Shown: one piece after another, positions 251-35,682 of the stretch
Layout: every line of letters starts with the position of its first letter
Numbering within the stretch: the stretch's first letter is position 1
Virus record (IMG/VR): IMGVR_UViG_3300008108_000332
Span: 1 to 43,240 of that record
DNA: 43,240 nucleotides
DNA from: a virus
Reading direction: 5' to 3' (one strand)
Notes under the pieces: model-generated
Seen by the model: only the letters and a program-made list of their open reading frames with translations
The model's database searches: none
What the model was told of the DNA's origin: nothing
Made by a program: the position numbers and the translations under genes

Positions 251-253
251 GGT

Positions 254-401
254 TTGTAAGCGGTTTAGCTGAATCTTGAGGATTAGGATAGGGAATCTCT
301 TTCAAAAGATCCTCTAAATACTCAAGAATCATATCTTTTACTGGTGGATCAAGCTTATTAAGACTTTTTCTGGCTTTTTTCTCCCATTCAATTCTCCACA
401 T
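254..401 (-). pseudogene. RelE/ParE-type toxin, 5' part, split by the IS
   Basis: The toxin start is ATG at 401-399, overlapping the antitoxin gene by 14 bases as usual in relBE-like operons. It reads MWRIEWEKKARKSLNKL, then about 32 more residues, and runs into the IS at 258. The remainder is at 42273-42420. Removing the IS and one TTGTA copy gives an unbroken 96-residue protein with the RelE-type core ([19 protein letters not shown]) and the C-terminal VGHRKEVY typical of these ribosome-dependent mRNA nucleases. As it stands the toxin is inactivated. Confidence 0.9.
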
Positions 402-621
402 GTAATTTTTCCCGTTCTTTTCTAAGGTCTTCTAATGTCCAAACCACAGACTCTTTTGGGTCATAGGTTTTTAATACTTCCTGAGCTTCGTGAATATCTT
501 CCATGTCTTCCATGAGTTCAAAGAAAAGCTTTTTAATGAGAGAATTTTCATCTTCACCAATTTCTTTGGCTAGTTCGTGGAATCTTGTCTCAAGCTTTTC
601 CGAAACATTAATCGTTAGCAT
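388..621 (-). CDS. RelB/ParD-like antitoxin of the IS-split toxin
   Basis: A 77-aa acidic protein with a ribbon-helix-helix-like N-terminus (MLTINVSEKLETRFHELAKE) followed by a charged helical tail (WTLEDLRKEREKL). Family knowledge: the N-terminal part binds operator DNA as a dimer and the tail wraps the RelE/ParE toxin. A GGAG Shine-Dalgarno lies about 8 bases before the ATG at 621. The 3' end overlaps the toxin start by 14 bases, so the pair was translationally coupled. The antitoxin is intact although its toxin is split by the IS, so it is now an antitoxin without a partner on this element. Confidence 0.8.
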   Translation of the reverse strand: MLTINVSEKLETRFHELAKEIGEDENSLIKKLFFELMEDMEDIHEAQEVLKTYDPKESVVWTLEDLRKEREKLHVEN

Positions 622-665
622 TCATTTGTCTCCTTTTCTTGCAAATCAATCATAAAAAGCGCCCA

Positions 666-944
666 TCATGCCAGAAGCTTTAATAATTCTTCATTTCTCT
701 CTATGCTCTCTATGGCATGAGATTTAGCCGATAAATTTTTCAAATCCATTTCCTGCTCCAGTTCACTTAATGTCCATCTCTTGGCAGGCTTTTCTAGCCT
801 TGAAAGCCCAATATATTTATCTTCCAACTCTTCTATCAATCGAATAATCGCTTCTCTGGCATAGTAAGTTTTCGTCCGTCCTGTTTTTTCCGCAAGAAGA
901 CCAAGTCGAGTTTCAATATTTTCTGGTAATCTAATGGCAAGCAT
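666..944 (-). CDS. Orphan ribbon-helix-helix antitoxin (RelB/StbD-like)
   Basis: A 92-aa protein from ATG 944, chosen over an upstream in-frame start because MLAIRLPENIETRLGLLAEK is the standard N-terminus of this family and AAGGGG precedes it. The segment RTKTYYAREAIIRLIEELED is the RHH DNA-binding region, followed by the usual tail (RWTLSELEQEMDL). About 22 further residues are not typical, and no toxin gene follows: the next gene downstream is another antitoxin (621). This suggests the toxin was deleted and the reading frame ran into other sequence. It may still repress its own promoter or neutralise a host toxin. Confidence 0.7.
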   Translation of the reverse strand: MLAIRLPENIETRLGLLAEKTGRTKTYYAREAIIRLIEELEDKYIGLSRLEKPAKRWTLSELEQEMDLKNLSAKSHAIESIERNEELLKLLA

Positions 945-4279: not shown

Positions 4280-5769
4280 TATCGAACCATCTTTAATTTG
4301 CCACGCTTTTCTTCAGGTATGGCGTTATATTGCTCAGGAGTTAAATTCCATTCTTTAAAACCACCTTTGCCATCAGGAGCTTTATATATATGAACATTTC
4401 CACTTCCCTTATTTGGGTTTGATGTGGTTGCGCCTGTATCTACGGAATTCTTAGGCTTTCCATAGTTCTCATTAGGCTTACCTTCGGGCGTCATCTCATT
4501 ATGAGTACGCTCCCCTTCGATATATTTATCGGCATTTCGTTCGTAAAAATCAGCAAGATTGCTTTCTTCTCCTAAGATACCTTGCGTTTCTTTCAGCCTT
4601 TCAAGGTGAAGCTCAAGGCTATCCTGAGCGTGTCTATTCACATCATCTAAAGTATCAAAAAAAGCGTCTGATTGCATTTTATGGTCAGGAGAAGAAGCAG
4701 CCAATATTTTCTCAGAAAATATATTCATTCCTTTTGGTGAAAGAGTTTTAAACATATCCGCTTTTAATTCAGAAGAATACTTCACCATATTTGAAATAGC
4801 TCTTGCCGTTGCGTCATCCGTTGCCTTTTTCTTCCAAAGCGTTGCAATGCCTTCTTCTGACCCTTGAGGAGCAGCCCATACATCATGAAGAATATTTTGA
4901 AATATATCAGAATGGGATTTGGCTATTGATTTCATCCTTTCGGTCACAACAACCATTCTTTTTGAGGCTTCTATTTTAGGAGTGACTTCAGTCAATAATT
5001 TTTCATGCCTTTTTGCAGCTATTTCGATTGTTCTATAACGAGCGTTTGTAGCCTCTTGCTTCCTAATGCCTAATTCCTGTGGTCTATAGGTATGATCATC
5101 TTCAGCCCTCAACTTACTGGCTTCTGCGGACATTGTACGGGCATCAGCATTTTTCGTTTTCACAAAGTCATCAACGGCTTTATGTCCTTCTTCCGTTACA
5201 TAGGGAAGAATAGAAAAAACCCCTTCCTGACCTGTTTTGGGGTCATTGTAAATCAATTTGCGGCTTTCGCGTGAAACGCCCGTAAGCTCTGCGCCTTGAG
5301 GCGCTAATCCTTTGTCCTGAAGGGTTTTTAAGGAAAGTTGACCCGCCTTCATTAATTCACCTTCAGGGATATTCATAGCCATTGACATATAAAGATCATT
5401 TGCCAAAGGACTCACGGCTTCTTTAAATATTGTTTCCTTCTTTTTCTTTTCCAACATCTCCTTCATGGAGTTGTTTTGGGATTCCATATAGCCCGCAACA
5501 TTAGCGAATCTTTCCATCCTCTCTCTTTTTTCTTTATTTGCTGCCCCCTTCATGCCCGCGGCGAGCCCCAGAAACATTGCTTGAATACCACCCTCCATTC
5601 CACGGCGGTTCTGACCCCACCCCTGCGCCAGTTTCTCAAGTGAATCCGCAGCACTGGTATCCGCAGGCAACTCTTTTTCCATATCAAAGCGTAGTTTATT
5701 TGATTGCATATCATGTAAAGACGCATCCGAAGCTATTTTCGCATAATCAAAATAAGAATCACCTGCCAT
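4279..5769 (-). CDS. Ejection protein, P22 gp20 position
   Basis: A 496-aa protein from ATG 5769, preferred to an upstream in-frame start at 5811 because GGGAAGGA precedes it and it avoids overlap with the preceding gene. Long charged helices dominate (for example MESQNNSMKEMLEKKKKETIFKE). Residues ~80-95 are Gly/Ala-rich (MFLGLAAGMKGAAN). Position between the glycine-tailed protein (5786-6787) and the gp16-like protein matches P22 gp20, an internal virion protein injected with the DNA. Sequence alone would not identify it. Confidence 0.55.
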   Translation of the reverse strand: MAGDSYFDYAKIASDASLHDMQSNKLRFDMEKELPADTSAADSLEKLAQGWGQNRRGMEGGIQAMFLGLAAGMKGAANKEKRERMERFANVAGYMESQNNSMKEMLEKKKKETIFKEAVSPLANDLYMSMAMNIPEGELMKAGQLSLKTLQDKGLAPQGAELTGVSRESRKLIYNDPKTGQEGVFSILPYVTEEGHKAVDDFVKTKNADARTMSAEASKLRAEDDHTYRPQELGIRKQEATNARYRTIEIAAKRHEKLLTEVTPKIEASKRMVVVTERMKSIAKSHSDIFQNILHDVWAAPQGSEEGIATLWKKKATDDATARAISNMVKYSSELKADMFKTLSPKGMNIFSEKILAASSPDHKMQSDAFFDTLDDVNRHAQDSLELHLERLKETQGILGEESNLADFYERNADKYIEGERTHNEMTPEGKPNENYGKPKNSVDTGATTSNPNKGSGNVHIYKAPDGKGGFKEWNLTPEQYNAIPEEKRGKLKMVR

Positions 5770-8769: not shown

Positions 8770-10907
8770 TATCCTCTTCTCCCCCATCGCCCGAATAAAG
8801 CGATTTTCCTGATATTAATCTTTCCTGAATTGGTGTAGCCCCGAATAGAGATAAAAAAGGTCGAAGCGGGGAATCTCAACCGCTTGACAGGCATCAAATA
8901 GGGATAATCCATGCGTTCCCCTTCTTCAGATTCCAGCGGGTCATTATCATCGTATCGGGAAAATTCCAGCATGGGGACGGATTCTATAATATCGCCCTTC
9001 ATGGGAAGGTCATAGGAAGCATCAAGGGTAAAACTCTTGCGAATATCCCCAGAGACGGAAATAGAAAGTGTGTTGTCTTCCTTCAATAAAAAAGAGGATG
9101 GATATTCGGCGAAGAGTTGAATGTATTTATTCGACCACCTTTTTCCCGTGAAAGGGGAAAGCGTCCATGAAAAAGAGATGAGTCTTTCTCCGCCGCTGTC
9201 TCCATAAAGAGGAACGCCGGAATTTTCATCGGCATATTGAAAGATTTGATTCTCGATGGCAAGATAAAGAGAATTATCCAGAGAATCCAGAAAAGACTGA
9301 CAATACTCAAAATCACCCGAAAAGACCGCAAAGGAAGAAATTGTTCCCTCTATAACCGCCGCAATCCCTTCTCTTTGTCCAAATCTAAAAAAGAAGAAAT
9401 TCCCCTGAGGATAAAAACAGGAAATCGTGCTGTCCCATCCCTCTTTAGAGGCAAAACTCTCCGATGAATTGTTTTTGACGATCTGATTCACCTGCGGAAT
9501 GGGAGTCGCGCTGAATTGTCGGGCGATATTGTAGGTGCCTAAAGAAAATAAACCATTTTCATTGGCGATGACTGTTTCATTGGGAAGCTCTGCCATGAGA
9601 TTCCTGTGCATGAGACCCACATTGAGGGACGTAAAATACTGCAAGACGGGTTTTCCTTCCGCGCCCGCACCCCCAGCAGGTTCCGTCCCAGACCACACCT
9701 GCACTTTCTTCCTGCCCAGAAACACTGTGTAGCCGTTCACAAAGGAAATCGCCTCAAGATTGTCAGGAATACCGTGTTTATCGGACAAATCAATGGAAGG
9801 CATGGATTTGGCGACAGGAGAAAACCACCCCGTCAAGGAGTTGCTTTCATACTGAAAATAGACCTTCATGGCTTCAGAAGGCGACCTGTAATTGATGCCG
9901 CTTATTCCCTGACCTAACGCAAAGATGCGGTCATGAAGAACACGCATCCAGCTAAATCTTGGGACGTCTTTGAGATAAGAAAGCTTTGCCCCATTTTTGT
10001 CAAAAACAGGGAGATTATCGGCAACAGTTAAGGTGATAACGCCCATATTGTTTTGAATATTAGTGACAAGGCTTTCAATAATGCCTCCTTTTGTAGAAAC
10101 GACTCTCACAGTATTGTTCTGGTAATTTTCTATATTGAAAGAAATGGATGCCTTGAAAGTCAGAATCTTATCGCCCGTTTTGGTGATATCAAGGGCGGTT
10201 TCTTCAACGAACCCCTTCACGTCTGAAATCTCCTGTCCATTCCATCGCATGACCTTATTAACGCCATTGCAGATAAAAAGATGCCCCTTAAACGTGATCC
10301 CCTGAGACAAACAATGGGGATGAAGGTCAGACCTTAAAAGCGTGAGGACTTTTGTGGCGGCATCATAGAGATAAATGCGCCCCAGAGGATACCAAACCTT
10401 GTTGATGGTGGTATTGTCAGCAAAAATAAAATCAGAGGTGGTGATCACAACCTGATTATTCTCCTGATTCTTCACCACTCCTTTAATGACGATTTCTTCC
10501 TCAAAGGTTCCCTCGTCAGGAATGCTGTACTCAATCCTTATTTTGTAGTCTTGATCGTAGAAATCTTTTTTAGGCGTTGTGACACCCAATGTAACGGCAT
10601 CTAAAACCACAAGATTCGTGGCTTCGCTGTCAAAGATAAAATCCCTCACATAGAGAAGGATTTGCTTGCTGCCGTTTGCGCCATAAGAAGGGAATAAACT
10701 GATAATTTCAGCATGAGCAGGCAGCGTCTTCCCGTCATAAATAAGCCGTGTGCCATACCTGACCATTCCTTCCCCTTTGGGAAAGGGAAGAATGTTATTA
10801 AGATAAAAGGCATGTTCAGGCTTGAGCAGTAAGGCGGCAATATCCTGATTCATGCCCTTATGGGGGAATATTCTGACCTGCTTATCATATCGCTCTTCTT
10901 TAAACAT
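8769..10907 (-). CDS. Tail hub/DNA-stabilisation protein, P22 gp10 position
   Basis: A 712-aa protein from ATG 10907 (MFKEERYDKQVRIFPHKG). The open frame extends further upstream, but that part lies within the adaptor gene in another frame. The sequence is beta-rich, as in the propeller-like hub proteins that close the portal channel of podoviruses (P22 gp10 type). PHKGMNQDIAALLLKPEHAF near the N-terminus and a run of FRFGQREGIAAVIEG-like strands support this. It overlaps the adaptor stop by 8 bases and the next start by one base. It is larger than P22 gp10 (about 470 aa). Confidence 0.6.
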   Translation of the reverse strand: MFKEERYDKQVRIFPHKGMNQDIAALLLKPEHAFYLNNILPFPKGEGMVRYGTRLIYDGKTLPAHAEIISLFPSYGANGSKQILLYVRDFIFDSEATNLVVLDAVTLGVTTPKKDFYDQDYKIRIEYSIPDEGTFEEEIVIKGVVKNQENNQVVITTSDFIFADNTTINKVWYPLGRIYLYDAATKVLTLLRSDLHPHCLSQGITFKGHLFICNGVNKVMRWNGQEISDVKGFVEETALDITKTGDKILTFKASISFNIENYQNNTVRVVSTKGGIIESLVTNIQNNMGVITLTVADNLPVFDKNGAKLSYLKDVPRFSWMRVLHDRIFALGQGISGINYRSPSEAMKVYFQYESNSLTGWFSPVAKSMPSIDLSDKHGIPDNLEAISFVNGYTVFLGRKKVQVWSGTEPAGGAGAEGKPVLQYFTSLNVGLMHRNLMAELPNETVIANENGLFSLGTYNIARQFSATPIPQVNQIVKNNSSESFASKEGWDSTISCFYPQGNFFFFRFGQREGIAAVIEGTISSFAVFSGDFEYCQSFLDSLDNSLYLAIENQIFQYADENSGVPLYGDSGGERLISFSWTLSPFTGKRWSNKYIQLFAEYPSSFLLKEDNTLSISVSGDIRKSFTLDASYDLPMKGDIIESVPMLEFSRYDDNDPLESEEGERMDYPYLMPVKRLRFPASTFFISIRGYTNSGKINIRKIALFGRWGRRG

Positions 10908-20513: not shown

Positions 20514-20987
20514 CTACTCTTCGATGCTTTGAGAGCTAAATCCTAATTTTCCTAATCCCTCATTCCCCTTGTAAACGTGGTTGGGTGTTGGCTTCGGCTT
20601 TTGGACTTCAACGATCTGCTCTTCAATACCAGCAGTAAAGATGGCTGACGATGCCTTGTAGTTCCCTGCTGATCGAGCAAATTGACCGATTTTTGAAAGG
20701 ACAGCTTGCAATTCATCCTGTTCCTCAGGATAAATCGGTGGCTCTGACCTTGGAATTTTTTCTCCAATGCTGATGATACGTGTCATTTTGTAATCCAACG
20801 ATACCGCAACATCGTGAATAGTAGACCCAAATTTTTTAATAATCTCATCTTTGTAAAATCGACTGGGAGCTTCAATCACCAAGACACCGTAAAGAGGTGA
20901 GTGGATTTTTACTGGTTTCCTCAAAAACCATGCCTCGTAAGCGTCTGCACCAATGCTTTTAATCATTTTTTCTGTAAATCTATACAT
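20514..20987 (-). CDS. DnaA domain I-like protein
   Basis: A 157-aa protein from ATG 20987, with AGGAGAG 8 bases upstream, overlapping the initiator stop by 8 bases. The first ~65 residues (FTEKMIKSIGADAYEAWFLRK, then GVLVIEAPSRFYKDEIIKKFG) match the pattern of DnaA N-terminal domains: helix, Y..WF, beta strand with A-P-S/N-x-F, helix. In DnaA this domain contacts the DnaB helicase and partner proteins. The rest is a low-complexity linker with Pro/Lys. Co-translated with the iteron-bearing initiator, it may recruit host DnaB. Resemblance is by pattern only. Confidence 0.55.
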   Translation of the reverse strand: MYRFTEKMIKSIGADAYEAWFLRKPVKIHSPLYGVLVIEAPSRFYKDEIIKKFGSTIHDVAVSLDYKMTRIISIGEKIPRSEPPIYPEEQDELQAVLSKIGQFARSAGNYKASSAIFTAGIEEQIVEVQKPKPTPNHVYKGNEGLGKLGFSSQSIEE

Positions 20988-21870
20988 AGCAATTCTCTCC
21001 TCTTGCTTCATATTCCTTGCGAATCCTTGCTAACAATTCTTCCTGCTTCTCTTCCTCGGTTTTCTGTTTTGGCTTTTTCTTACCAATCCAATCCTTCCAC
21101 GGATTAATTCTGTGATTCGTTCCCACTTGTTTCTTTGAAATGAAATTATGAGGTCTGATGATGTATTTTGGATCAGTGGGGCGATCATCAACGTAGTAAG
21201 CCCCTGCACAGTCCAAAAAATCATCAAGGGTGTGTTCTCCTAAATCTGACTGCAACTGACCGAAAAATAATGCTCTCGCTTCCTGCTGCTTTGAAAGCGG
21301 GTAATCAGGAAAATTAGCAATCTCTAAAAATTCTTGGAATTTGGAATCTAAAAATTCATTTGATAAACGAGGGGAAGAATCTCCCACTTTGTAAGGGGGT
21401 AGGGGATTTTCTTCTGAGTGTATACTGGGTGCATCTGTATCTGTATATGGAGTTGATGTTTTGCTCACTCCCTGTTTAACGTTTCGACAGAGGCTATTGA
21501 ATTTTTCGACAGAGGGTGTTGAACGTTTCGACACTCCCTCTATCTTCAAGCTATTGATTTCAAAGATGATTTTAGAGTTGCCAGTTTCAACAATTTTTTC
21601 AACGTTCAAAAAATATGGTGTTGATCCATTGAATTTTAAGTTTTCTCTTTTACCTATTTTGAAAAATCCGAGTTTGGCTAATTTAGACCTGATCCGCCGA
21701 ACAGAATGATAGTCACAATGAATTTCATCTGCCATTTCAGAATCTTTTTTATAAACAGCGCCTTTAAAATTTTTCTTCTTAGACCAAGAAAAAATGTTCG
21801 ATAAAAACATGCTCTCAGGAAGAGACAAACCATCAAAATAGTAAACCTTACCACCACAAAAACATTCCAT
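20980..21870 (-). CDS. Replication initiator with internal iterons (lambda O-like layout)
   Basis: A 296-aa protein from ATG 21870. An in-frame TTG at 21888 is less likely. The N-terminal ~90 residues look like a winged helix (KDSEMADEIHCDYHSVRRIRSKLAKLGFFKIGKREN). A low-complexity linker follows, then a helical C-terminal part (EFLEIANFPDYPLSKQQEAR) and a lysine-rich end. Four 22-bp-spaced repeats sit inside the linker-coding part (21452-21533), an arrangement known from lambda gene O, where the origin lies inside the initiator gene. The DnaA domain I-like gene follows in the same operon. It is divergent from an HTH regulator with a shared operator region. Confidence 0.6.
   Translation of the reverse strand: MECFCGGKVYYFDGLSLPESMFLSNIFSWSKKKNFKGAVYKKDSEMADEIHCDYHSVRRIRSKLAKLGFFKIGKRENLKFNGSTPYFLNVEKIVETGNSKIIFEINSLKIEGVSKRSTPSVEKFNSLCRNVKQGVSKTSTPYTDTDAPSIHSEENPLPPYKVGDSSPRLSNEFLDSKFQEFLEIANFPDYPLSKQQEARALFFGQLQSDLGEHTLDDFLDCAGAYYVDDRPTDPKYIIRPHNFISKKQVGTNHRINPWKDWIGKKKPKQKTEEEKQEELLARIRKEYEARGENCYV
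21452..21533. repeat. 22-bp-spaced iteron array (4 units)
   Basis: Units begin at 21452, 21474, 21496 and 21518, exactly 22 bp apart. The 16-bp cores are GTTGATGTTTTGCTCA (degenerate), GTTTAACGTTTCGACA, ATTGAATTTTTCGACA and GTTGAACGTTTCGACA. Because 22 is not a multiple of 3, the repeat cannot come from a protein repeat, so the DNA itself is conserved. Two helical turns per unit is typical of initiator-binding iterons. This is a candidate origin within the initiator gene. Confidence 0.75.
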
Positions 21871-21891
21871 GGCATACCCTTTATTCAATAA

Positions 21892-21951
21892 TATAATTAT
21901 ACTATTAAAAAATAGGTTTTCAATAAGTATTTAATATGATAATAGTACTAT
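21892..21951. promoter_or_regulatory. Divergent promoter/operator region
   Basis: For the initiator (minus strand) a promoter can be read as TTGAAA (21918-21923), a 16-base spacer and TATAAT (21896-21901). The spacer holds CTATT-AAAA-AATAG (21902-21915). A perfect palindrome ATAGTACTAT lies at 21942-21951 nearer the HTH gene. These are plausible operator sites for the divergently encoded XRE regulator. No clear Shine-Dalgarno precedes the HTH gene. Confidence 0.5.
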
Positions 21952-21979
21952 GGGATAATTTAATTATGATATTATCAAT

Positions 21980-22273
21980 ATGGATTTTTTGCAGAAGAAA
22001 AGAAGGCTAAACTTGCTAACGACAAAACAGCTTGCCGATGCTGTAAATATGCCTCAGCCATCCATATCTAACATAGAAAACGATAAAGAACCTTTCGGAA
22101 AAAATCGTGCGAGCCTTCTCTCTAAAGCCCTTAAAATACCTGAAGATGTGATGGCTGTGTATAGGGGACACCTCCCTCAATACGCATACAAGATTTACCG
22201 AGAGAAGCCTGACAAGCTTGAGAAAGCCATAAGGAAGATTGTCAAAAAATTAGAGAAGGAAGACGAAAAATGA
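21980..22273 (+). CDS. XRE-family HTH regulator
   Basis: A 97-aa protein. A Cro/C1-type helix-turn-helix (LTTKQLADAVNMPQPSISNIENDK) is followed by KALKIPEDVMAVYRGHLP and a charged C-terminal helix (KLEKAIRKIVKKLEKEDEK). It is divergent from the replication operon and overlaps the helicase gene by 4 bases (ATGA). The likely role is repression of the intergenic promoters, possibly the lysis-plasmid maintenance switch. No evident ribosome site, so it may be leaderless or weakly translated. Confidence 0.75.
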   Translation: MDFLQKKRRLNLLTTKQLADAVNMPQPSISNIENDKEPFGKNRASLLSKALKIPEDVMAVYRGHLPQYAYKIYREKPDKLEKAIRKIVKKLEKEDEK

Positions 22274-23763
22274 GACCAACTCAGGAGCAGGGAAATATCA
22301 TTGATGCCTTTCAAAGCGAAGCATCATTCAAGGTCAATGCGTTGGCAGGGACTGGAAAAACCAGCACCCTTGTCCTCCTTGCACAATCAGAACCCAACAA
22401 GAAAGGTCTTTATCTGGCTTACAACAAAGCCCTGAAAGAGGAGGCGATGAAGAAGTTTCCCGTTTCCGTTGAGTGTAAAACCATTCATGGGCTTGCCTAT
22501 GACAAACTCGGCAAAGAGTATCGCGCACAACTGTTTCAAAAGAACGACCCCAGAAAAGTTTCTGAAGTTTTGGGAATAGGCGGTATCGAGATCAGTTTTA
22601 GAGATTACGAGAACACATCAACGCCGAACGATATTCTGTCCCCTTACAAGGTTTATGAATTCACCAAAAGAACAGTCAATAATTTTTGTTACAGCGGAGA
22701 CGATAAAATAGATCAAAAACATGTCCCGTCCCTTAAAAAAGAAATTATTGGAAAATTCCCGTGGTTGCTTGGCATCAAGGGCGAAGAGCCGTTTGAATAT
22801 TGGAAAATGAAGGTATTTCAGAATATTCAACACAATGTTGCCCCGCAAATCTATGACAAGGCTCGGTTAATGTGGGAGAAAATGTCCTCTCTTAATGACA
22901 TGGATATTTTAGCTGAACACGACACCTATTTAAAACTATGGCAAATGAAAAAGCCTGTTTTGAAAGATTACGACTACATCCTTGTTGATGAAGCGCAGGA
23001 TGTGAATGGATGTATGTTGGATATCACAGAAAATCAAACCTGCCAGATTGTTTACGTGGGAGACCAATACCAGCAGATATATTCCTTTCGTGGTTCTATC
23101 AACGCTATGCAAACCATTGATAAGCCAACTCTCTACCTCACGCAAAGCTTCCGCTTCGGAGATCGTATTGCTGAAGAAGCCAACAAGGTTTTAAGTCTCT
23201 TGTGCGCGGAAAGACAGGTTTTTGGACTGAGCCATCTATCGTCTTACGTGAATGAAGGAAATAGCGAAAGGTACACCTACATCGCCCGAACCAATGCGTC
23301 TCTGTTGGATGAGTACATTACGTTGGCAGACAAGGGATTATCTTGTCGCGTCATCGGGACACTGAAATCTGCCGTCAAAATGATTGAAGATGTTTACAGG
23401 CTCTATTGCGGAAAGAATCACGACATTCAATCGCCCGATCTCAGAAAAATCAAGGATTTTGACGAACTCACCAAACTTGCGGCTATTTTTGATGAGCCTG
23501 AGCTTCTCGTGGCTATCTCTTTTGTCAAAAAGCATGGCAGCGATACCAAGCAACTGATTGAAAATATTATCGGACACCGAAATCCGTCAGCACAACAGGC
23601 TGATGTTATTTTAACGACCGCCCACTCTTCCAAAGGCTTGGAATTTGATAGCGTTAAGCTCGCCTCTGATTTTCCGACAAAAAATAGAGAAGATCAGCAT
23701 TTGCTCTACGTTGCCATGACGCGGGCTAAACAACATCTGCACCACGCAGTCTCGTTTGAATAA
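22270..23763 (+). CDS. UvrD-like superfamily 1 helicase
   Basis: A 497-aa protein with all main SF1A motifs: NALAGTGKTST (Walker A, K30), YILVDEAQD (Walker B), GDQYQQIYSFRG, YLTQSFRFG, TTAHSSKGLEFDSVKLA and LLYVAMTRAKQHL. The general layout is that of short UvrD/FBH1-like 3'-5' helicases. It may unwind replication forks or remove recombinase filaments in phage replication. It is translationally coupled to the XRE regulator, an unusual pairing that suggests joint control. The closest known subfamily cannot be fixed from motifs alone. Confidence 0.9.
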   Translation: MRPTQEQGNIIDAFQSEASFKVNALAGTGKTSTLVLLAQSEPNKKGLYLAYNKALKEEAMKKFPVSVECKTIHGLAYDKLGKEYRAQLFQKNDPRKVSEVLGIGGIEISFRDYENTSTPNDILSPYKVYEFTKRTVNNFCYSGDDKIDQKHVPSLKKEIIGKFPWLLGIKGEEPFEYWKMKVFQNIQHNVAPQIYDKARLMWEKMSSLNDMDILAEHDTYLKLWQMKKPVLKDYDYILVDEAQDVNGCMLDITENQTCQIVYVGDQYQQIYSFRGSINAMQTIDKPTLYLTQSFRFGDRIAEEANKVLSLLCAERQVFGLSHLSSYVNEGNSERYTYIARTNASLLDEYITLADKGLSCRVIGTLKSAVKMIEDVYRLYCGKNHDIQSPDLRKIKDFDELTKLAAIFDEPELLVAISFVKKHGSDTKQLIENIIGHRNPSAQQADVILTTAHSSKGLEFDSVKLASDFPTKNREDQHLLYVAMTRAKQHLHHAVSFE

Positions 23764-23855
23764 AAAAACACTCATAATCGATCGAGAAATTGGTTATTTG
23801 GATAAAACATAGATAGGGAGCATTGACCCCAGCGATATTGCTGTAGGCCGCTAAA

Positions 23856-25082
23856 TTATATAGCTAGCGTTGATATTTTTCTGGTGGGTTTAATCGATTG
23901 CCAAATTTCTTTCTCAAAATAGGCAAGAAGTAAACTCTCAAAAATCTTCCTTTCACTTTCAGCGTGGTATTTTTCTGGCACAAGGGCTTTCTGTTCATCC
24001 ACGCTGATCCCGTCTCTCCATTCCTGCAAGGCAAGAGCTTTACCTTCTTCTTCAAGCTTTCTAAATCTTTCTGCCTTTTTCTTCATGGCTTCATTATAGG
24101 CTTTCATCACCTGTTCTTCTGGGCTTTCGTAGTTTTCTGGCGGAAGATAAGGGCTTCCTTTCTTCATCATTCCCATAAAAACGTTAATTGGACTCAGCTT
24201 GAGAGCTTTGGCTTTATCGTTGACTTGTAAATCAAAGGCAAAAGCATGAATAGAAGCTTGCAGCATATCAGGGCTTATCTTCCCTGCTTTGTAAATTTGG
24301 TCGAGATGGGCTTTGGTAAATTTAATAAAAGCTAAGGGTTCAATGTCGATCTCTTCCCATTCGTCAGGAAACGAAAAGTTATCCACAATCTCGCGCGCGG
24401 AATCAGAAATATTAGTAGTAGTTTTATTTATATATATACTACTACTAACAGAGGGCGTGTTGCTACTAGTTTGCTCGTAGTTTGCTACTAGTTTGCTATC
24501 AACTTTTTCTTCGTTTAAAAAATGTTTTTCAAACTCATTTTTTACCTTTTTTGGAATAATTAAGACTAAAAATCCTCCACGTCCTTCCTTGCTCTTGCCT
24601 CTTATGATTAAGCCTTTGTTTATCAAGCGCAATATGGCGTTTCTAGTAGTTTCTATATGAGAGTTTATTCCCTGTTTAAGCTCTTCAGTTGTGACAACAA
24701 TAGACCCCTCAATTTGTCGGCTCATGAGGAACAAAAACACCTTTTTTTGGACTCCGCTTAGTCTCTGAATTGCTACTAGTTTGCTATCAGTTTCGCTACT
24801 AGTTTGCTCGTAGTTTGCTACTAGTTTGCTATCAGTTTCGCTACTAGTTTGCTCGTAGTTTGCTACTAGTTTGCTATCAGTTACTAGTTTGCTATCAGTT
24901 TCGCTACTAGTTTGCTCGTAGTTTGCTACTAGTTTGCTATCAGTTTCGCTACTAGTTTGCTCGTAGTTTGCTACTAGTTTTAAAGTAGAATTTTCCTTTT
25001 TGATCTCTTCCAATATATTCCAAGGTCTATACTCTTTCTTTTGAAACTTTTTGGGAGTCTTATAATCTGTAATTTGTGGCAT
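23856..25082 (-). CDS. Winged-helix replication initiator with in-frame iterons
   Basis: A 408-aa protein directly downstream of parA (3-base gap). The N-terminal part contains four near-identical 15-residue units (SKLVANYEQTSSETD) with one short unit (SKLVTD), and a fifth copy after the DNA-binding part. These mirror 45-bp DNA repeats. A winged-helix region (RLSGVQKKVFLFLMSR; VTTEELKQGINSHIETTRNA; LINKGLIIRGKSKEGRGG) follows. The C-terminal half is helical and charged. It lies where ParB would be but lacks ParB motifs. With iterons and a DnaA box in its own gene it looks like a plasmid initiator, with a centromere-binding role as the alternative. Confidence 0.65.
   Translation of the reverse strand: MPQITDYKTPKKFQKKEYRPWNILEEIKKENSTLKLVANYEQTSSETDSKLVANYEQTSSETDSKLVTDSKLVANYEQTSSETDSKLVANYEQTSSETDSKLVAIQRLSGVQKKVFLFLMSRQIEGSIVVTTEELKQGINSHIETTRNAILRLINKGLIIRGKSKEGRGGFLVLIIPKKVKNEFEKHFLNEEKVDSKLVANYEQTSSNTPSVSSSIYINKTTTNISDSAREIVDNFSFPDEWEEIDIEPLAFIKFTKAHLDQIYKAGKISPDMLQASIHAFAFDLQVNDKAKALKLSPINVFMGMMKKGSPYLPPENYESPEEQVMKAYNEAMKKKAERFRKLEEEGKALALQEWRDGISVDEQKALVPEKYHAESERKIFESLLLAYFEKEIWQSIKPTRKISTLAI
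24379..24387. promoter_or_regulatory. Perfect DnaA box
   Basis: TTATCCACA matches the consensus DnaA box exactly. It lies 25 bases from an AT-rich hairpin (24412-24448) and 75 bases from the first iteron, a typical arrangement of a plasmid origin. It is within the coding sequence of the parA-linked initiator. Confidence 0.65.
24412..24448. repeat. AT-rich inverted repeat, possible DNA-unwinding element
   Basis: TTAGTAGTAGT and ACTACTACTAA form perfect 11-bp arms around a 15-base loop of only A and T. It lies between the DnaA box and the iteron pair, as unwinding elements do at origins. It encodes part of a Ser/Thr-rich linker (SSSIYINKTTTN), so coding constraint is likely loose. Confidence 0.5.
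24462..24497. repeat. Iteron pair of the parA-linked origin
   Basis: Two copies of GCTACTAGTTTGCT start at 24462 and 24484, 22 bp apart. They match the units of the larger array at 24772-24983 and are separated from it by the winged-helix coding region. Confidence 0.75.
24772..24983. repeat. Iteron array of ten units (core GCTACTAGTTTGCT)
   Basis: Units start at 24772, 24795, 24817, 24840, 24862, 24880, 24903, 24925, 24948 and 24970. Spacing alternates 22 and 23 bp (45 bp per pair), with one 18-bp step before the sixth. The sixth unit has one mismatch, and the tenth keeps only the first 11 bases of the core. Each contains ACTAGT. The 45-bp period is also a 15-codon peptide repeat, so DNA and protein repeats coincide here. 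About two helical turns per unit fits a row of initiator molecules on one face of the DNA. Confidence 0.85.
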
Positions 25083-25085
25083 AAC

Positions 25086-26051
25086 TTATTGCCTCGTAAG
25101 GGATTTAAATGAATGTTCAGAATTTTCAGCTTTTAGCTCAAGTACTTCTCTCGTAAAAAAATCTATATCTTCTTTTGCTGAAGTTGGTCTTAAACTGTTA
25201 AAAAGAGAGGTATTATTTGCCACGCTGTTTGCAAATTCTTGGCTTGTTCTAACAAAGGTCTTGTAGAGAATTTCATTAAAAACTTCATGCTGCATAAGGG
25301 AACTTAATACCTTATGAGATAAAGAATTCCTGCTATCAAATTTGTTAATAACAACCCTTAATGGAATATTTGACGAGTATTGTTTTTCTAATTTTTTTAT
25401 TTCTGTAAAGGACAATTTTAGACCAGATACGCTAAACTCTTCTGGTGTAACAGGAGCAATTACAACGTCAGATGATAGAGCGGCAGCAGCAGTAGATTGT
25501 CCCAACGCAGGAGGGCAATCGATAATGATAATATCATAGTCATTTTTGATTGAATCAAGGCTATCTTTATATACCCTGTGTAGTGGGTGTTTGTTTAGCA
25601 TAAGCAGATTATCTAAAACAGCATTTTCAATTCTGCTGGGCAGCAGAAAAAGACCATTAGAAACTTTAATAATAGCTTCTTGGATACCCATTCCTTCATT
25701 AATCACATCAAGCATAATAGGCATTTCTAGCGGTGTTATTCCAAAAGCATGTGTAAGGTTTGCTTGTTGATCTAAGTCAATGCACAAGATCTTTAATCCA
25801 TATAAATTTGCTCTTAAAGCTAAAGCATGAGCCAAAGATGTTTTGCCTGTGCCACCTTTTACGATTTGAAATGCAAGAGTTTGTTTTTTTACTTTGAGTT
25901 TGAATAATTCTCTAGCGGTATCGTGTCCAAAATAAACCCTGTTCATACTTTTTAGAAAGGGTAAATCATCTTTTCTAAGTCGCTTATGAACAGATTGAAC
26001 AGTCATATTCAAAAAAACTGCTGCCTCTGCTGCTGTCATCTTACTAATCAT
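25086..26051 (-). CDS. parA: ParA-family partition ATPase with N-terminal HTH
   Basis: A 321-aa protein. An N-terminal helix-turn-helix (MTAAEAAVFLNMTVQSVHKRLR) precedes a deviant Walker A IVKGGTGKTS (K65, K70), CIDLDQQANLTHAFG and IIIIDCPPALG. This is the plasmid type Ia layout, where ParA both moves plasmid copies on the nucleoid and represses its operon through the HTH. It has AGGAGA before the start and a good promoter with a 9-bp inverted repeat upstream. No ParB-like gene follows; the next gene is the iteron-bearing initiator. Confidence 0.9.
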   Translation of the reverse strand: MISKMTAAEAAVFLNMTVQSVHKRLRKDDLPFLKSMNRVYFGHDTARELFKLKVKKQTLAFQIVKGGTGKTSLAHALALRANLYGLKILCIDLDQQANLTHAFGITPLEMPIMLDVINEGMGIQEAIIKVSNGLFLLPSRIENAVLDNLLMLNKHPLHRVYKDSLDSIKNDYDIIIIDCPPALGQSTAAAALSSDVVIAPVTPEEFSVSGLKLSFTEIKKLEKQYSSNIPLRVVINKFDSRNSLSHKVLSSLMQHEVFNEILYKTFVRTSQEFANSVANNTSLFNSLRPTSAKEDIDFFTREVLELKAENSEHSFKSLTRQ

Positions 26052-26066
26052 TATATCTCCTAGGTT

Positions 26067-26113
26067 AAGTTATATGTGATAAAATATAATATAACTTCAT
26101 CTATGTGTGTCAA
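26067..26113 (-). promoter_or_regulatory. parA promoter and operator
   Basis: On the minus strand TTGACA (26113-26108), a 16-base spacer, then TATTAT (26091-26086). A perfect inverted repeat AAGTTATAT-N13-ATATAACTT (26067-26097) covers the -10 region, placed for autorepression by the ParA HTH. The parA Shine-Dalgarno follows. Confidence 0.7.
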
Positions 26114-26256
26114 CAGTAATGTTTGTGATCAGTGAATAAAAAAAATAATAATATGGCAGAAGGAAAAATTAATAAAAATAAGGAACGGAAATACTTACAG
26201 GTGTTACGCTGGAGATTCGAGCGTTGGAATTTTCTTAAAATAAATAATGGACGGAC

Positions 26257-26571
26257 TTAACCTTCCATTTTTAATTGATCGCTATTCCTCTTGATCTGTG
26301 TTGACATGATGATATCGAAGTATTTCTCTAGGCGGGAGATGCGTTCTTTGCTTTCCTTGTCCTGTATGTTCATTTTTGCGTCTATGTGCGTAATTGCCGA
26401 ATCAATCTTGTCTTCAAGGTGTTTAAAGCCACGATCCATTTTTTCTTCAAGATTCTTTATCTGGCTCTGATGTGCTATTGTTCTATTAGCAAGCCATGTG
26501 AAAAAAGTGACAAGGATAGTTGTGGCAGCGATAGCTCCGCCAGAAAACAGGGTTAATGGTATATCGTTCAT
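26257..26571 (-). CDS. Membrane-anchored coiled-coil protein
   Basis: A 104-aa protein from ATG 26571. A transmembrane segment (LTLFSGGAIAATTILVTFFTWL, residues ~6-27) is followed by a heptad-rich coiled coil (QIKNLEEKMDRGFKHLEDKI through ERISRLEKYFDIIM). An upstream in-frame start (26601) would add ten residues and overlap a regulator remnant. Similar layouts occur in phage superinfection-exclusion or structural membrane proteins, but I cannot name a family. Confidence 0.55.
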   Translation of the reverse strand: MNDIPLTLFSGGAIAATTILVTFFTWLANRTIAHQSQIKNLEEKMDRGFKHLEDKIDSAITHIDAKMNIQDKESKERISRLEKYFDIIMSTQIKRNSDQLKMEG

Positions 26572-26582
26572 TTTTGCGTTCC

Positions 26583-26645
26583 TTACCTCAACTCGTCCCA
26601 AGTATAATCTGGCAATATGTCCTCTGCCTTAACCTGAACCGCCAG
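26583..26645 (-). pseudogene. C-terminal remnant of a second YdaS/Cro-like regulator
   Basis: The minus strand encodes AVQVKAEDILPDYTWDELR and then a stop at 26583. This matches the C-terminus of the regulator at 28462-28701 (GKVKARDILPDYPWDEL), and the DNA is clearly similar too. The rest of the gene is missing: the 300-aa gene ends immediately upstream at 26650. This marks a recombination junction where the 300-aa gene replaced the front of the regulator, or a decayed duplication. Confidence 0.7.
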
Positions 26646-26649
26646 TTAT

Positions 26650-27552
26650 TTACCAATATTTTTTTTCTATAGCTCTATCAAGAATTTTAGTTGCCACTAC
26701 AGGATAGAACGCCCCTTCTTTTTCTGCAATATTAATTAATTTTGTAACATAGCTAGCCGTTATCGCCCCTTCGATTTGATATAGTCTAACGCTAACCACT
26801 GTCATCTTTTCTATGAGAAGAGATAATTGCTTTTTCTCTCCAAAGGAATTTTTTAGCAGTGATGCAACAAATAATAAGAGCATTGCCAGGTCTTTGCTTT
26901 CAAAAAAGAACCACGTTAAGATATGGTAATATATTATTAGACCTACTACCTCTTTAATCGATCTTAAAACAAAGTGATTGAATTGAAGTAAACGCGGATT
27001 ATATTTTTTTTCTCTTAAATTCACTCTTAAAAAGAAAGCAATCATTTTTTCATCGAGAAAACTTGAAAATTCACAACAAATAAGATCATAAATAATAATT
27101 TTCTCAAAAGAGGATGACTGAATTTTTGAATATAAATATTCCTCACAAAACTCTTGAAAATTAACAAAATAAAACATTCCATAGGCTTGAGAAAATGGTG
27201 TAACGCTTCTACGAGTGAAGAATTCCAAGTCTTTAATTTGAATATTATTTTTTTTCTGTTCTCTAACAAAATTAGTCGCGCTTAAATAATCTCTTATTAA
27301 ATCGAAAATTCTTGATATAGTTTCTTCTTTATCTTCTATTTTTGAAGATGATAATAATTCTGATAATATTCTTTCTAGAATATGTGATTTAATCTCTTTT
27401 GATTCCTCATATTCCACCTCTCCCCAATATCCTTCTTTAAAATCCTCTTTTTCATTATATTGGTAGACCATAAAGTTTTTTACTTTATGGATTATCTTTT
27501 GCTCAATTTTTTTGATTTCTTTATACGAAGGTGGTATATTTTCTGTATCCAT
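26650..27552 (-). CDS. Unknown 300-aa protein
   Basis: Very AT-rich gene. The N-terminal third is charged (KEIKKIEQKIIHKVKNF; SHILERILSELLSSS). Residues ~215-240 are hydrophobic (VGLIIYYHILTWFFF; LAMLLLFVASLL) and could form one or two membrane helices. The C-terminus is helical. No family recognised. AAGGAAGATGCG precedes ATG 27552. Its start is overlapped by a predicted antisense RNA. Its borders coincide with a truncated regulator, so it was probably acquired, and defence or exclusion functions are worth considering. Confidence 0.55.
   Translation of the reverse strand: MDTENIPPSYKEIKKIEQKIIHKVKNFMVYQYNEKEDFKEGYWGEVEYEESKEIKSHILERILSELLSSSKIEDKEETISRIFDLIRDYLSATNFVREQKKNNIQIKDLEFFTRRSVTPFSQAYGMFYFVNFQEFCEEYLYSKIQSSSFEKIIIYDLICCEFSSFLDEKMIAFFLRVNLREKKYNPRLLQFNHFVLRSIKEVVGLIIYYHILTWFFFESKDLAMLLLFVASLLKNSFGEKKQLSLLIEKMTVVSVRLYQIEGAITASYVTKLINIAEKEGAFYPVVATKILDRAIEKKYW
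27512..27540 (+). promoter_or_regulatory. Promoter for a predicted antisense RNA
   Basis: TTGATT (27512-27517), a 17-base spacer and TATATT (27535-27540) on the plus strand, pointing out of the start of the 300-aa gene. It would start transcription near 27548, 35 bases before a strong plus-strand terminator hairpin. Confidence 0.45.
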
Positions 27553-27613
27553 CGCATCTTCCTTTCAACGTTATGCGGTGTTAGGACAGTGTTTCGCACA
27601 CTGTCCTTTTTTT
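27548..27613 (+). ncRNA. Predicted ~65-nt antisense RNA
   Basis: A plus-strand transcript between the promoter at 27512-27540 and an intrinsic terminator: 10-bp hairpin AGGACAGTGT/ACACTGTCCT (27583-27607) and a seven-T run (27607-27613). Both neighbouring genes run on the minus strand and no plus-strand gene leads into it. Its 5' part is complementary to the start codon and Shine-Dalgarno of the 300-aa gene, so it could block that gene's translation. Confidence 0.5.
27583..27613 (+). terminator. Intrinsic terminator, plus-strand orientation only
   Basis: Perfect 10-bp stem with a 5-base loop (TTCGC) followed by seven T residues. On the minus strand no T-run follows, so it does not serve the adjacent initiator gene ending at 27651. 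Confidence 0.85.
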
Positions 27614-27650
27614 ATATCAACTATTCTTTTCTTGTGTAAAGAAGATTCTC

Positions 27651-28331
27651 TCAGACTTTCACCACTTCTATGGTAAATCCATACTCTTTCATCATTTCGC
27701 TAAATTTCCTGTTCATATTCAACATTCCGCTTAGGCGACTCTGCCTGAAAGTACTCGTTGCTTTAAGCAGAATAGCCTTTGTTTCTTGGCAACACTCAAT
27801 CACGCAATCCACAAACCATGATTGGTAAGTGGCTGCTCCAAAACAATGCAGCAAAAAAGAGCGTATCCACTCTTCCGTAAGCGCGAGAGGCTCACTCAAA
27901 GAGCCGTCCTCGCGCGCGTCTTGAGGTTTATATGCGTTAATATGGTTATGCCTACCCGTTCTGTGGGTAGATACCAGACCATTCTCTGGGTAGGTATCTA
28001 CCCTTTTTATGGGTAGGTGAATTGTGGATAATTCTTCATTTTTTGTAACAACCCTAATCCAAGTAACGTTGTAATTTTTCTTTTTCTCAACCTTGCTTTC
28101 AAAGATTGTACAGTGTCCATCTTTAATAATTTCATACGCTTTTTGTGCAGTTTTCATATTAACTTCTAATTCTTCTGCCGTTTGTTTAGCACTCTTGTAG
28201 AACCAATCACCTGCTTTATGGTCTTTCCATTCGATCGTTCCCCAATGGTAAAGATTCATAAAAACTAACGCTATTGCTGGCGGATAGTTCTTTGAAAAAA
28301 AGATAAATGCCTGATGTTCTATTTTGTTCAT
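27651..28331 (-). CDS. Replication initiator: winged helix plus DnaA domain I-like module
   Basis: A 226-aa protein. The N-terminal ~95 residues (AFIFFSKNYPPAIALVFMNLYHWG; FYKSAKQTAEELEVNMKTAQKAY) resemble the winged helix of phage/plasmid initiators. The C-terminal ~75 residues (LTEEWIRSFLLHCFGAATYQ, then SWFVD; LLKATSTFRQSRL) show the same Y..WF...A.S.F pattern as the protein at 20514 and DnaA domain I. The linker between them is encoded by DNA carrying three 23-bp-spaced iterons and a DnaA box. It seems to be a fused version of the initiator pair at 20514-21870. Confidence 0.6.
   Translation of the reverse strand: MNKIEHQAFIFFSKNYPPAIALVFMNLYHWGTIEWKDHKAGDWFYKSAKQTAEELEVNMKTAQKAYEIIKDGHCTIFESKVEKKKNYNVTWIRVVTKNEELSTIHLPIKRVDTYPENGLVSTHRTGRHNHINAYKPQDAREDGSLSEPLALTEEWIRSFLLHCFGAATYQSWFVDCVIECCQETKAILLKATSTFRQSRLSGMLNMNRKFSEMMKEYGFTIEVVKV
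27964..28031. repeat. 23-bp-spaced iterons with DnaA box
   Basis: TGGGTAG occurs at 27964, 27987 and 28010, exactly 23 bp apart. The middle copy is part of the inverted repeat GGGTAG-GTAT-CTACCC (27988-28003), and a further CTACCC lies at 27952. A perfect DnaA box (TGTGGATAA, complement TTATCCACA) follows at 28023-28031. All lie within the linker-coding part of the initiator gene. The 23-bp period is not a multiple of 3, so this is a DNA-level signal. Confidence 0.7.
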
Positions 28332-28461: not shown

Positions 28462-28701
28462 TTATTTTCTTACATTGCTAAGTTCATCCCAAGGATAATC
28501 GGGAAGGATATCTCTTGCCTTTACTTTTCCTTCGGTAAGGGTTTCTATTTTTAAACAATACAAAGGTGATGGAACCCTGCGTCCGTGTTTCCAAGACATC
28601 GCCGTTTGATAGGATATGCCAACATCTAAGGAGAATTTAGTTACGCTCCCTAATAGTTCGATAGCTTTTTTTAGACTTTCCAGATTTGCTTTATATAGCA
28701 T
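28462..28701 (-). CDS. YdaS/Cro-like HTH regulator
   Basis: A 79-aa protein from ATG 28701 with a strong GGAAAGGA upstream. The upstream in-frame start at 28770 is less likely. AIELLGSVTKFSLDVGISYQTAMSWKHGRR is a Cro-type helix-turn-helix of the YdaS kind (GISYQTAMSWKHG recognition region), followed by VPSPLYCLKIETLTEGKVKA and a short tail. It is divergent from the pentapeptide gene and early operon, with palindromic sites between, so it probably represses one or both. A remnant of a second copy lies at 26583-26645. Confidence 0.75.
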   Translation of the reverse strand: MLYKANLESLKKAIELLGSVTKFSLDVGISYQTAMSWKHGRRVPSPLYCLKIETLTEGKVKARDILPDYPWDELSNVRK

Positions 28702-28789
28702 CCCATATTCCTTTCCCTCGTAAATACTGCGTTTAAACATATACGAATTTATGTTTAGAAACAATGACAAATGTAGTCATCTTTTTTTC

Positions 28790-28871: not shown

Positions 28872-29405
28872 ATGTACCAACACCTCACAGAAGAACTTCG
28901 AGAAATTCTCTCCAATCACAACCAATGGCTAGAGTTGATGAACAAGAACCCTCGCCCTGTTCTGACGGAAAAACAAATGAGTCTTCGGGCTGATCTTGGC
29001 AACATGTCACTCCGTGATTTAGACTTGTATGGCGTTGATCTGAGCTACGCTTCAGCCATTAACACGGACTTTTCGGGATCAAGACTGACGAATGGCAATT
29101 TGAAGGGTCTTTATGCGCCTGACAGTAGATTTGAGGACTGCACGATTATCTCTGCGACCTTTCGGAACTTTTACGGCAAGGGAGCAAGTTTTTACATGTC
29201 CAATCTGAGCAAGTGTGATTTTTCACATTCGTTTATTGCGTATGTCAATTTCGATCAGACTGATTTAGCGGATGTGAAGTTTCATGGATGCCACATGGAT
29301 GGGGCTACGATGACCCATGCACCTATCAAAGGAGCAGATTTCAGATTTTTTAACATCGGCAAAGATGACCTTGTGGCAATTGAAATAATGCGAATGGCAC
29401 AGTAG
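28872..29405 (+). CDS. Pentapeptide-repeat protein
   Basis: A 177-aa protein with an AAGGAG ribosome site. After a helical N-terminus, residues ~45-165 form pentapeptide repeats (DLDLYGVDLSYASAINTDFSGSRL pattern; LADVKFHGCHMDGATM), which fold as a right-handed four-sided beta helix. It is the first gene of the early plus-strand operon. Pentapeptide proteins can mimic DNA (gyrase protection) or act as scaffolds. Which applies here is unknown. The operator upstream suggests it is expressed early. Confidence 0.75.
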   Translation: MYQHLTEELREILSNHNQWLELMNKNPRPVLTEKQMSLRADLGNMSLRDLDLYGVDLSYASAINTDFSGSRLTNGNLKGLYAPDSRFEDCTIISATFRNFYGKGASFYMSNLSKCDFSHSFIAYVNFDQTDLADVKFHGCHMDGATMTHAPIKGADFRFFNIGKDDLVAIEIMRMAQ

Positions 29406-34506: not shown

Positions 34507-35682
34507 ATGCCCTTTATTTATCTGATTAATTTCTTCCTCGCTGTTTCAAGCAGTATGGCAATGTCGCTCGCCCCCCTGTTTATGACTCAAACTTTGGGAT
34601 TGAGCCGAGTCGTCATCGGACTGCTGGAGGGATGCTATGAGCTCTCGGCAGATGTGATGAAGCTGGTGTCAGGCAGATGGATTGACCGCACCCACAAGAA
34701 AAAAAGATGGATTACTCTGGGGATTATGTTTTCCTGTTTGTCCAAGCCGTTTCTCTTGTTGGGCATGGCTCCTTCTTTTGTGGCGTTGTGCTTTTCCCGC
34801 TTGCTGGAAAGAGTGAGCAACGGCTCGGTTGCCTCAGCCAGAGATATTTTAATTGCCGTGCAATCCCCAGACAATGCGCGAGGGAAAGCCTATGGCAAGA
34901 TCATGATGAGCAAGACGTTGGGCTGTTTTATCGGACCATTTTTACTGGCGTTCTGGTGCGTGCTGTATCCGTCACCTGATGGCAGCAGCCATTATATTTC
35001 CCTGATTCTGGTGTCTTTGCTGTTCTCTCTGTTGGCAGGCTGGTTTATGGGGTATTTACCGCAGGATCGGGGAGAGGATCACAGCAAAGCAATTTCTGCT
35101 CCTGATTGGCAAGAGATATGGAAACTGGTCACGTCTCACAAAGCGTTTCTGGGCTGTTTCAGCCTCTTTATGCTGGGACGCTTTAATGACGGGGTGCTGA
35201 TTTTGTATCTGAAAGACATTGGCTTTCCGCCTGAGTTTTATCTCTCCACCATTGGCATTTTTAACTATGTGTCGCTGATGACAGCCCATCCTGTGGGACG
35301 TTTGCTGGATAGGGGTTACCAAGCGGCTTTGGTCTATGCCACAGTGCTTGCGTTGGTGCTGTTTAACGCCTGCTTTCTCATCAAAGGAGAAATTTGGGTA
35401 CTCATGGTCGGTGTGGGCTTCTGGGGATTTCAGCGGTCATCCTTTCAGATTATCTTTACCACTTTACTCTCTCATATTGTGCCTGCATCCCATTTAGGCA
35501 CAGCATTGGGACTGGCGGCTTTGCTGAAGGGCGTGATCTTCATGGTCTCCTGCACGTTGGCAGGGATTCTGGCAGGCTTTTCTTACAAGTGGGTCTTCAT
35601 ATTCGGTCTCACTACATCCCTGTTGACCCTGCTGGCGATTCCCAGAAAAGTCTTGCGGAATGTATGGCAGCCGTCTACATAG
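34507..35682 (+). CDS. Major facilitator superfamily transporter
   Basis: A 391-aa protein with about 12 hydrophobic segments. The MFS signature is between segments 2 and 3 (ELSADVMKLVSGRWIDRTHKKKRW, loop DRxxxK/RR type), and PVGRLLDRGY matches the second half. It resembles the subfamily with LGLSxxxxGLxEG... seen in many bacteria with unknown substrate. A transporter is unusual in a phage genome. It has a poor ribosome site and no operon partner, and its GC content looks higher than that of the early genes. Probably acquired from a bacterial chromosome. Confidence 0.85.
   Translation: MPFIYLINFFLAVSSSMAMSLAPLFMTQTLGLSRVVIGLLEGCYELSADVMKLVSGRWIDRTHKKKRWITLGIMFSCLSKPFLLLGMAPSFVALCFSRLLERVSNGSVASARDILIAVQSPDNARGKAYGKIMMSKTLGCFIGPFLLAFWCVLYPSPDGSSHYISLILVSLLFSLLAGWFMGYLPQDRGEDHSKAISAPDWQEIWKLVTSHKAFLGCFSLFMLGRFNDGVLILYLKDIGFPPEFYLSTIGIFNYVSLMTAHPVGRLLDRGYQAALVYATVLALVLFNACFLIKGEIWVLMVGVGFWGFQRSSFQIIFTTLLSHIVPASHLGTALGLAALLKGVIFMVSCTLAGILAGFSYKWVFIFGLTTSLLTLLAIPRKVLRNVWQPST

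Follow-up and report, generated by a model that had tools for sequence, protein, structure and literature searches.

The 43,240-bp window analyzed here, IMG/VR virus record IMGVR_UViG_3300008108_000332, is best read as a phage-plasmid in which three initiator-like genes each carry their own set of DNA repeats. We consider it reasonably probable that the element holds separate replicons with in-gene origins, with gene 2 serving as the plasmid replicon, gene 1 as the lytic replicon, and gene 3 probably as a third. Gene 2 belongs to a ParA-linked family also present on plasmids of several intracellular and predatory bacteria.

Genome and gene content

The window ends carry an exact 108-bp direct terminal repeat, and the genome is therefore probably complete. 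The window codes for terminase, portal, tail fibre, endolysin, a RecE-like exonuclease, and ParA, as well as for regulators of the YdaS/Cro and HTH_3 types. Scanning the larger ORFs and part of the small ones revealed no integrase. Virion genes thus stand together with plasmid partition and replication genes, and the phage-plasmid reading follows from the presence of ParA and the initiators and this absence of an integrase. The terminase was ∼31% identical to phage records, with a Megaira (Rickettsiales) phage as the top match. The terminase scan for close relatives returned only ∼30% identical terminases, the helicase scan returned no helicase relatives, and a DNA-level search of phages with positions 20.5–29.0 kb of the window gave no match. 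A pentapeptide-repeat protein (28872–29405) and an MFS transporter (34507–35682) are encoded amid the phage genes, and an inverted repeat just upstream of parA (26061–26103) is a candidate operator.

Table 1. Coordinates of replication-associated features in the window.
Feature	Position	Strand	Remarks
DnaA-domain-I-like protein	20514..21011	-	PF11638 DnaA_N 1.6e-5, above gathering score; overlaps gene 1 end
Gene 1, O-like wHTH replication initiator	20980..21870	-	Start ATG at 21870; first ORF codon TTG at 21888
Gene 1 iterons, 3 x 22 bp	21472..21537	+	Core TTTCGACA; read in three codon frames
Gene 2, ParA-linked wHTH initiator	23856..25082	-	Family by tblastn/HMM; structure model
Exact DnaA box TTATCCACA	24379..24387	+	In gene 2, beside A+T element
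TAGTAGTAG-(A+T)-CTACTACTA unwinding-type element	24413..24447		A+T-richest 40-mer of gene 2
Gene 2 second array	24460..24498	-	3 boxes, after wHTH-coding part
Gene 2 main iteron array	24770..24980	-	∼18 boxes, before wHTH-coding part; 4 x ∼11.25-bp boxes per 45-bp unit
ParA partition ATPase	25086..26051	-	PF13614 2e-35; phrog_164 6e-50; 3 bp upstream of gene 2
Gene 3, HTH-type N-terminus and DnaA-domain-I-like C-terminus	27651..28331	-	PF11638, below gathering score
Gene 3 iterons	27951..28017		3 direct and 2 inverted copies of CTACCC/GGGTAG
Exact DnaA box TTATCCACA	28023..28031	-	6 bp from gene 3 iterons
YdaS/Cro-like regulator	28462..28770	-	PF15943 6e-11; phrog_35 1e-15; upstream of gene 3

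Repeat sets within the three genes

A preliminary description had proposed three winged-helix initiator genes in this region, each with its own distinct set of DNA repeats. The gene coordinates were right, with all three genes on the minus strand, and repeat analysis bore out a separate repeat set in each. The proposed spacings of 22 bp in gene 1 and 23 bp in gene 3 held, whereas the 22/23 bp given for gene 2 is twice its true unit of ∼11 bp. The presence on one element of three initiator-like genes, each with iterons inside it, was likewise supported, although the winged-helix initiator assignment of gene 3 was confirmed weakly. The suggested separation into replicon types gained partial support, with gene 2 forming a plasmid-type ParA-Rep unit, gene 1 an O-like unit, and gene 3 a candidate for the backup origin.

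In gene 1, TGTCGAAA occurs three times at exact 22-bp spacing, and in gene 3, CTACCCA/TGGGTAG occurs three times (27964, 27987, and 28010) at exact 23-bp spacing. Gene 2 has ∼21 boxes of the AAACTAGTAGC type (AAACT-type), spaced by 11, 11, 12, and 11 bp to form 45-bp units, with a mean of 11.25 bp, or about one helical turn. In all three genes, successive copies occupy all three reading frames, so that the repetition lies in the DNA rather than in the protein. Against a null of 1000 synonymous-codon shuffles per gene, with k-mer triples as the statistic, the observed triples (k = 8 in gene 1, 14 in gene 2, and 7 in gene 3) were reached in none of the three genes, the null maxima being 7, 12, and 6, respectively. 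Elsewhere, across 32 other ORFs and all 700-bp blocks of the window, k was at most 5. Frame use and the synonymous-shuffle tests led us to reject a protein-repeat explanation. A shared recent origin of the three genes was not visible in pairwise BLAST (E > 1).

The exact DnaA box TTATCCACA occurs only twice in the window (0.33 expected), once in gene 2 and once in gene 3, and none was found inside gene 1. Among the features of iteron-type theta origins, gene 2 has repeats, an A+T region, and a DnaA box, gene 3 has repeats and a DnaA box, and gene 1 has repeats only.

Gene 2 and its ParA-linked family

The gene 2 product has three parts: a linker coded by the array, a wHTH (aa 100–189), and a C-terminal helical domain (aa 240–401). 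The AlphaFold model recovered the wHTH and the helical C-terminal domain and left both array-coded linkers disordered. The candidate Rep boxes lie within the gene, in DNA coding predicted disordered linkers, as in a RepA_N-type layout. Fold searches returned generic wHTH folds (MarR, DnaD N-domain, and ORC), none at E ≤ 0.001, and searches with the C-terminal domain gave no match to a known family of replication proteins. The RepA_N profile matched neither gene 2 at E ≤ 1 (Pfam-A) nor three of its relatives at E ≤ 0.05. TAGTAGTAG occurs twice in the window (0.07 expected), as an inverted pair flanking the A+T core in gene 2.

Relatives of gene 2 were found by tblastn on Legionella, Piscirickettsia, Cardinium, Bdellovibrio, and Bandiella plasmids, where they adjoin ParA and are annotated as "hypothetical protein". 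HMM searches located the family in 31 of the 140 genomes in the order of a Legionella genome, and also in several phage contigs. ParA precedes the gene in most members. Arrays with a period of ∼11 bp lie before the wHTH-coding part, and in many members also after it, while several Legionella members had weak arrays, no clear arrays, or no A+T element. The boxes are lineage-specific, and in Piscirickettsia, Bdellovibrio, and the phage contigs L020 and L145 they flank the wHTH at either end: AAACTAGTAGC in the window corresponds to GGAACA in Piscirickettsia, TAGTTCA and GACAAAG in two Bdellovibrio plasmids, and GGAGTCAAA in L020. A TAGTAG-(A+T)-CTACTA element was present in 9 of 30 distinct members, as compared with 0.56 expected from synonymous shuffles, and is placed between the array and the C-terminal domain. 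Between L020 and L145 this element is identical over 38 bp even though the proteins and boxes differ, which argues that, judged at the DNA level, it is held constant where present while the boxes change. In most members the gene itself contains no exact DnaA box; in L020, L142, and L145, DnaA boxes lie upstream of parA. In the phage contig L142, seven exact DnaA boxes are clustered in ∼200 bp just upstream of parA (5283–5479).

Plasmid pPSLF89-3 is maintained at 1–2 copies per cell, and neither a rep gene nor iterons had been recognised on it (PMC6963756). We found that its gene after ParA is a member of the gene 2 family. The Piscirickettsia plasmid p2PS6, which is similar and has phage tail genes, also carries an O-like gene, and the absence of a rep gene on pPSLF89-3 is therefore not absolute. 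The phage contigs L019–L021 and L145 combine the ParA-linked gene with an O-like initiator holding two or three exact in-gene DnaA boxes; given that both initiators are present there, pairs of putative replicons with in-gene sites appear to be recurrent in such phages. Two further candidates were not counted as in-gene origins: the in-gene triple TGCCAAA in the O-like gene of G145, which came no higher than the null maximum, and the repeats close to the second initiator of p2PS6, which are located upstream of that gene.

The plasmids pBdHAGR4 and pBdHAGR5, from a single Bdellovibrio strain, are 99.7% identical over 7264 bp but differ in ParA, in the N-terminal half of the gene 2 homologue, and in the boxes. 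From base 795 of the pBdHAGR4 gene, which is the first base of its TAGTAGTAG, the DNA is again highly similar (91% identity). The DNA-binding domain and the boxes have thus changed together while the C-terminus was conserved, a covariation of the RepA_N kind, as in the PLE satellites of V. cholerae, where the RepA_N domain and the origin covary and the C-terminus is conserved (PMC8263062). The simplest reading of the two sequences is that ParA, wHTH, and boxes would form an incompatibility-determining cassette, with the element and the C-terminus as a shared module. The pair looks like a natural incompatibility escape by module swap, and lends indirect support to the earlier suggestion that origins were captured to escape incompatibility. 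On pBdHAGR5, no other initiator was recognised; the plasmid does have a Replic_Relax match, a weak one, next to a coupling-protein gene, as well as one protein that could not be assigned.

Gene 1 and gene 3

Gene 1 matched profiles of a replication initiation protein (phrog_428, 8e-7), a DnaD-like loader (phrog_6493, 9e-6), and O-like proteins (phrog_391, 9e-5), and together with its in-gene iterons these matches give it the character of a lambda O-like unit. The DnaA-domain-I-like protein that follows is its putative helicase-recruiting partner. Homologues of gene 1 or gene 3 were not found by tblastn and pattern scans in the collections searched.

For gene 3, the PF11638 match had E-values of 0.0081 for the whole protein and 0.0024 for the C-terminal part, and its 18.0 bits lie below the gathering score of 24.6; the structure model was unusable (pLDDT 33). 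From its sequence features, gene 3 is a plausible but weaker candidate for an initiator with an in-gene origin.

Proposed mechanism

By analogy with pSK41 RepA or RepC of repABC plasmids, we infer that gene 2 may be a plasmid initiator with an in-gene origin. The genes, repeats, DNA-level constraint, family, and module swap can be read from the sequence itself; from these we infer a scheme of how the proteins would bind, how the DNA would melt, how the replisome would be recruited, and when each origin would be used. In the prophage state, gene 2 and ParA would act as a plasmid replicon maintaining the plasmid. The wHTH would bind the phased 11-bp boxes coded on both of its sides, the TAGTAG-(A+T)-CTACTA element beside the array would melt with the initiator and the DnaA of the host both assisting, and the host replisome would be recruited or loaded by the conserved C-terminal domain, with wHTH, boxes, and ParA evolving together as a swappable specificity module. 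In the lytic state, gene 1 would act on its 22-bp iterons and the DnaA-domain-I partner would recruit the helicase, in an O/P-like replicon. Gene 3, just behind the Cro-like regulator, would be a probable third, early-region initiator that may start early replication. Weighing against the scheme are the ParA partnership and the short relatives considered below, the finding that the C-terminal domain of gene 2 has no match among known replication families, the weak or missing arrays and elements of several Legionella members, the negative homologue searches for genes 1 and 3 in the collections covered, and the sub-threshold DnaA_N match of gene 3.

Comparison with known systems

Origins within initiator genes are known from lambda O (cited in PMC7157519), P1 repL (PMC9948254), repC of repABC (PMC3155836), and pSK41 rep (PMC5703833). 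Gene 1 resembles lambda O and ori-lambda in being a wHTH initiator gene with iterons inside, followed by a loader-type gene, and differs in its three 22-bp iterons and in its DnaA-domain-I-like partner, where lambda has P. In lambda, O comes after cro, and gene 3 likewise comes after the YdaS/Cro-like regulator. In RepA_N initiators (pSK41 Rep; also pLS32), an N-terminal wHTH binds boxes in rep, the origin codes the linker, and a separate C-terminal domain follows (PMC5703833). Gene 2 resembles this layout of wHTH, in-gene boxes, linker, and C-terminal domain, its binding being predicted, but differs in lacking a sequence match, in having phased boxes of ∼11 bp before as well as after the wHTH, and in its ParA linkage and Gram-negative hosts. 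In repABC plasmids, as proposed for gene 2, ParA (RepA) shares an operon with the initiator (RepC), and oriV with a large A+T region lies in the gene; neither iterons nor DnaA boxes were found in repC (PMC3155836), whereas gene 2 has both, and RepB is absent from the gene 2 locus. P1 combines separate prophage and lytic origins, oriR and oriL, the latter postulated to lie inside its gene, repL, with an A+T region (PMC9948254). Like the window as we read it, P1 is a phage-plasmid with separate plasmid and lytic replicons; it has two rather than three, and its initiators are unrelated.

Gene 2 also shares with the BUS (DnaA-box and DnaA-trio) an exact DnaA box, a GC-rich spacer, and TAG repeats beside A+T DNA, although its TAG repeats form inverted pairs. 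A BUS is taken to have three or more NAN trios of the 3'-GAT-5' type no further than 16 bp from a DnaA box; the gene 2 spacer is 16 bp if CAG AAA TAT TAG TAG TAG (24404–24421) is counted, and the polarity of the near trio appears reversed. The trios of the B. subtilis BUS appear to run opposite to the near TAG copy of gene 2. In TubR/tubC and ParR/parC, a small DNA-binding protein occupies short, phased repeats next to a segregation ATPase. Gene 2 would share this arrangement, but its ATPase is of the ParA type, and full-length members add a C-terminal domain and the A+T element.

Alternative explanations

The ParA linkage invites the view that gene 2 is a ParB/TubR-like centromere-binding protein only, with its array as the centromere and gene 1 and/or gene 3 running plasmid replication. 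Gene 2 directly follows ParA, its conserved partner, and its helically phased ∼11-bp arrays resemble known centromeres; p2PS6 has another initiator, and its relatives include short ParA-linked wHTH proteins that lack the C-terminal domain, with separate 11–12-bp arrays at three of their loci (L128, L136, and L137). We nevertheless regard a purely centromeric role as unlikely, given that the C-terminal domain is conserved, that an A+T element lies in the gene beside the array, and that DnaA boxes lie nearby or, in L020, L142, and L145, upstream of parA. Moreover, an initiator in the 99.7% identical part of pBdHAGR4 and pBdHAGR5 would be expected to make the two incompatible, and pBdHAGR5 has no other recognised initiator. 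Because of the ParA linkage and the short relatives, three with separate arrays, gene 2 likely has a centromere role as well. A fused initiator and centromere-binding protein, with one array as both origin and centromere, is a version of our preferred explanation rather than exclusive of it, and is a genuine possibility, if just short of an even one: ParA linkage in most members occurs together with replication-type features, and partition-like short relatives exist, but contact between ParA and the gene 2 protein is a prediction from genomic linkage, and repABC plasmids use a separate RepB. The most far-reaching version, with three independent and compatible in-gene origins, a gene 2 array acting as origin and centromere, and a ParA-wHTH-box cassette exchanged at a fixed TAG/CTA junction, appears rather doubtful.

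Gene 3 might instead be a transcription regulator or a relic, its repeats being operators and not an origin. Its position just behind the Cro-like gene, the mixture of inverted and direct short sites, which would fit an operator, and the weak domain evidence make this a tentative possibility, while the location of the repeats in the gene with an exact DnaA box adjoining, their exact 23-bp spacing, and the DnaA-domain-I-like C-terminus speak for an initiator. That the repeats of all three genes are neutral low-complexity expansions is very improbable; they do fall in linkers predicted to be disordered, and array length differs among the near-identical phages L019–L021, but all three frames are used, the phasing is helical, and distant relatives show this layout built from other sequences, all of which argues against it.

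Novelty and implications

Origins inside genes and dual replicons are already on record (PMC5703833, PMC3155836, PMC9948254), so the idea that the layout was undescribed does not extend to these or to the prophage and lytic origins of P1. As far as our searches of the open-access literature show, the combination of three in-gene origin layouts on one element is new, as are the ParA-linked family, whose phased in-gene arrays are double-sided and whose in-gene unwinding-type element stays constant, and its natural cassette swap. The third initiator-like gene sets the window apart from its relatives and is also the least certain part. Our results point to a family of plasmid replication genes that has gone unannotated in Piscirickettsia, Legionella, Rickettsiales, Cardinium, and Bdellovibrio, several of them intracellular or predatory bacteria, which includes pPSLF89-3. 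They also offer, in the Bdellovibrio pair, a natural case of apparent incompatibility escape, a testable layout for how phage-plasmids separate lytic from plasmid replication, and short candidate origins for genetics in bacteria with few tools.

Additional observations

Loci of the short ParA-linked wHTH proteins include long tandem arrays of 11 bp in L137 (3138–3360) and 12 bp in L128 (3213–3478), which are candidate centromeres of a related partition system. Related Legionella-order genes in L130–L135 have GGTTCAC boxes in a recurring 80/11/11-bp pattern and apparently lack the C-terminal domain. In L019, an extra array segment of ∼164 bp (9574–9737) breaks the frame of the gene 2 homologue relative to L020 and L021, which suggests array expansion or contraction, or misassembly. 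Finally, the terminase large subunit of L021 (IMGVR_UViG_3300029913_000145, 1–918, minus strand) has an insert resembling an intein, which L019, although near-identical, does not have.
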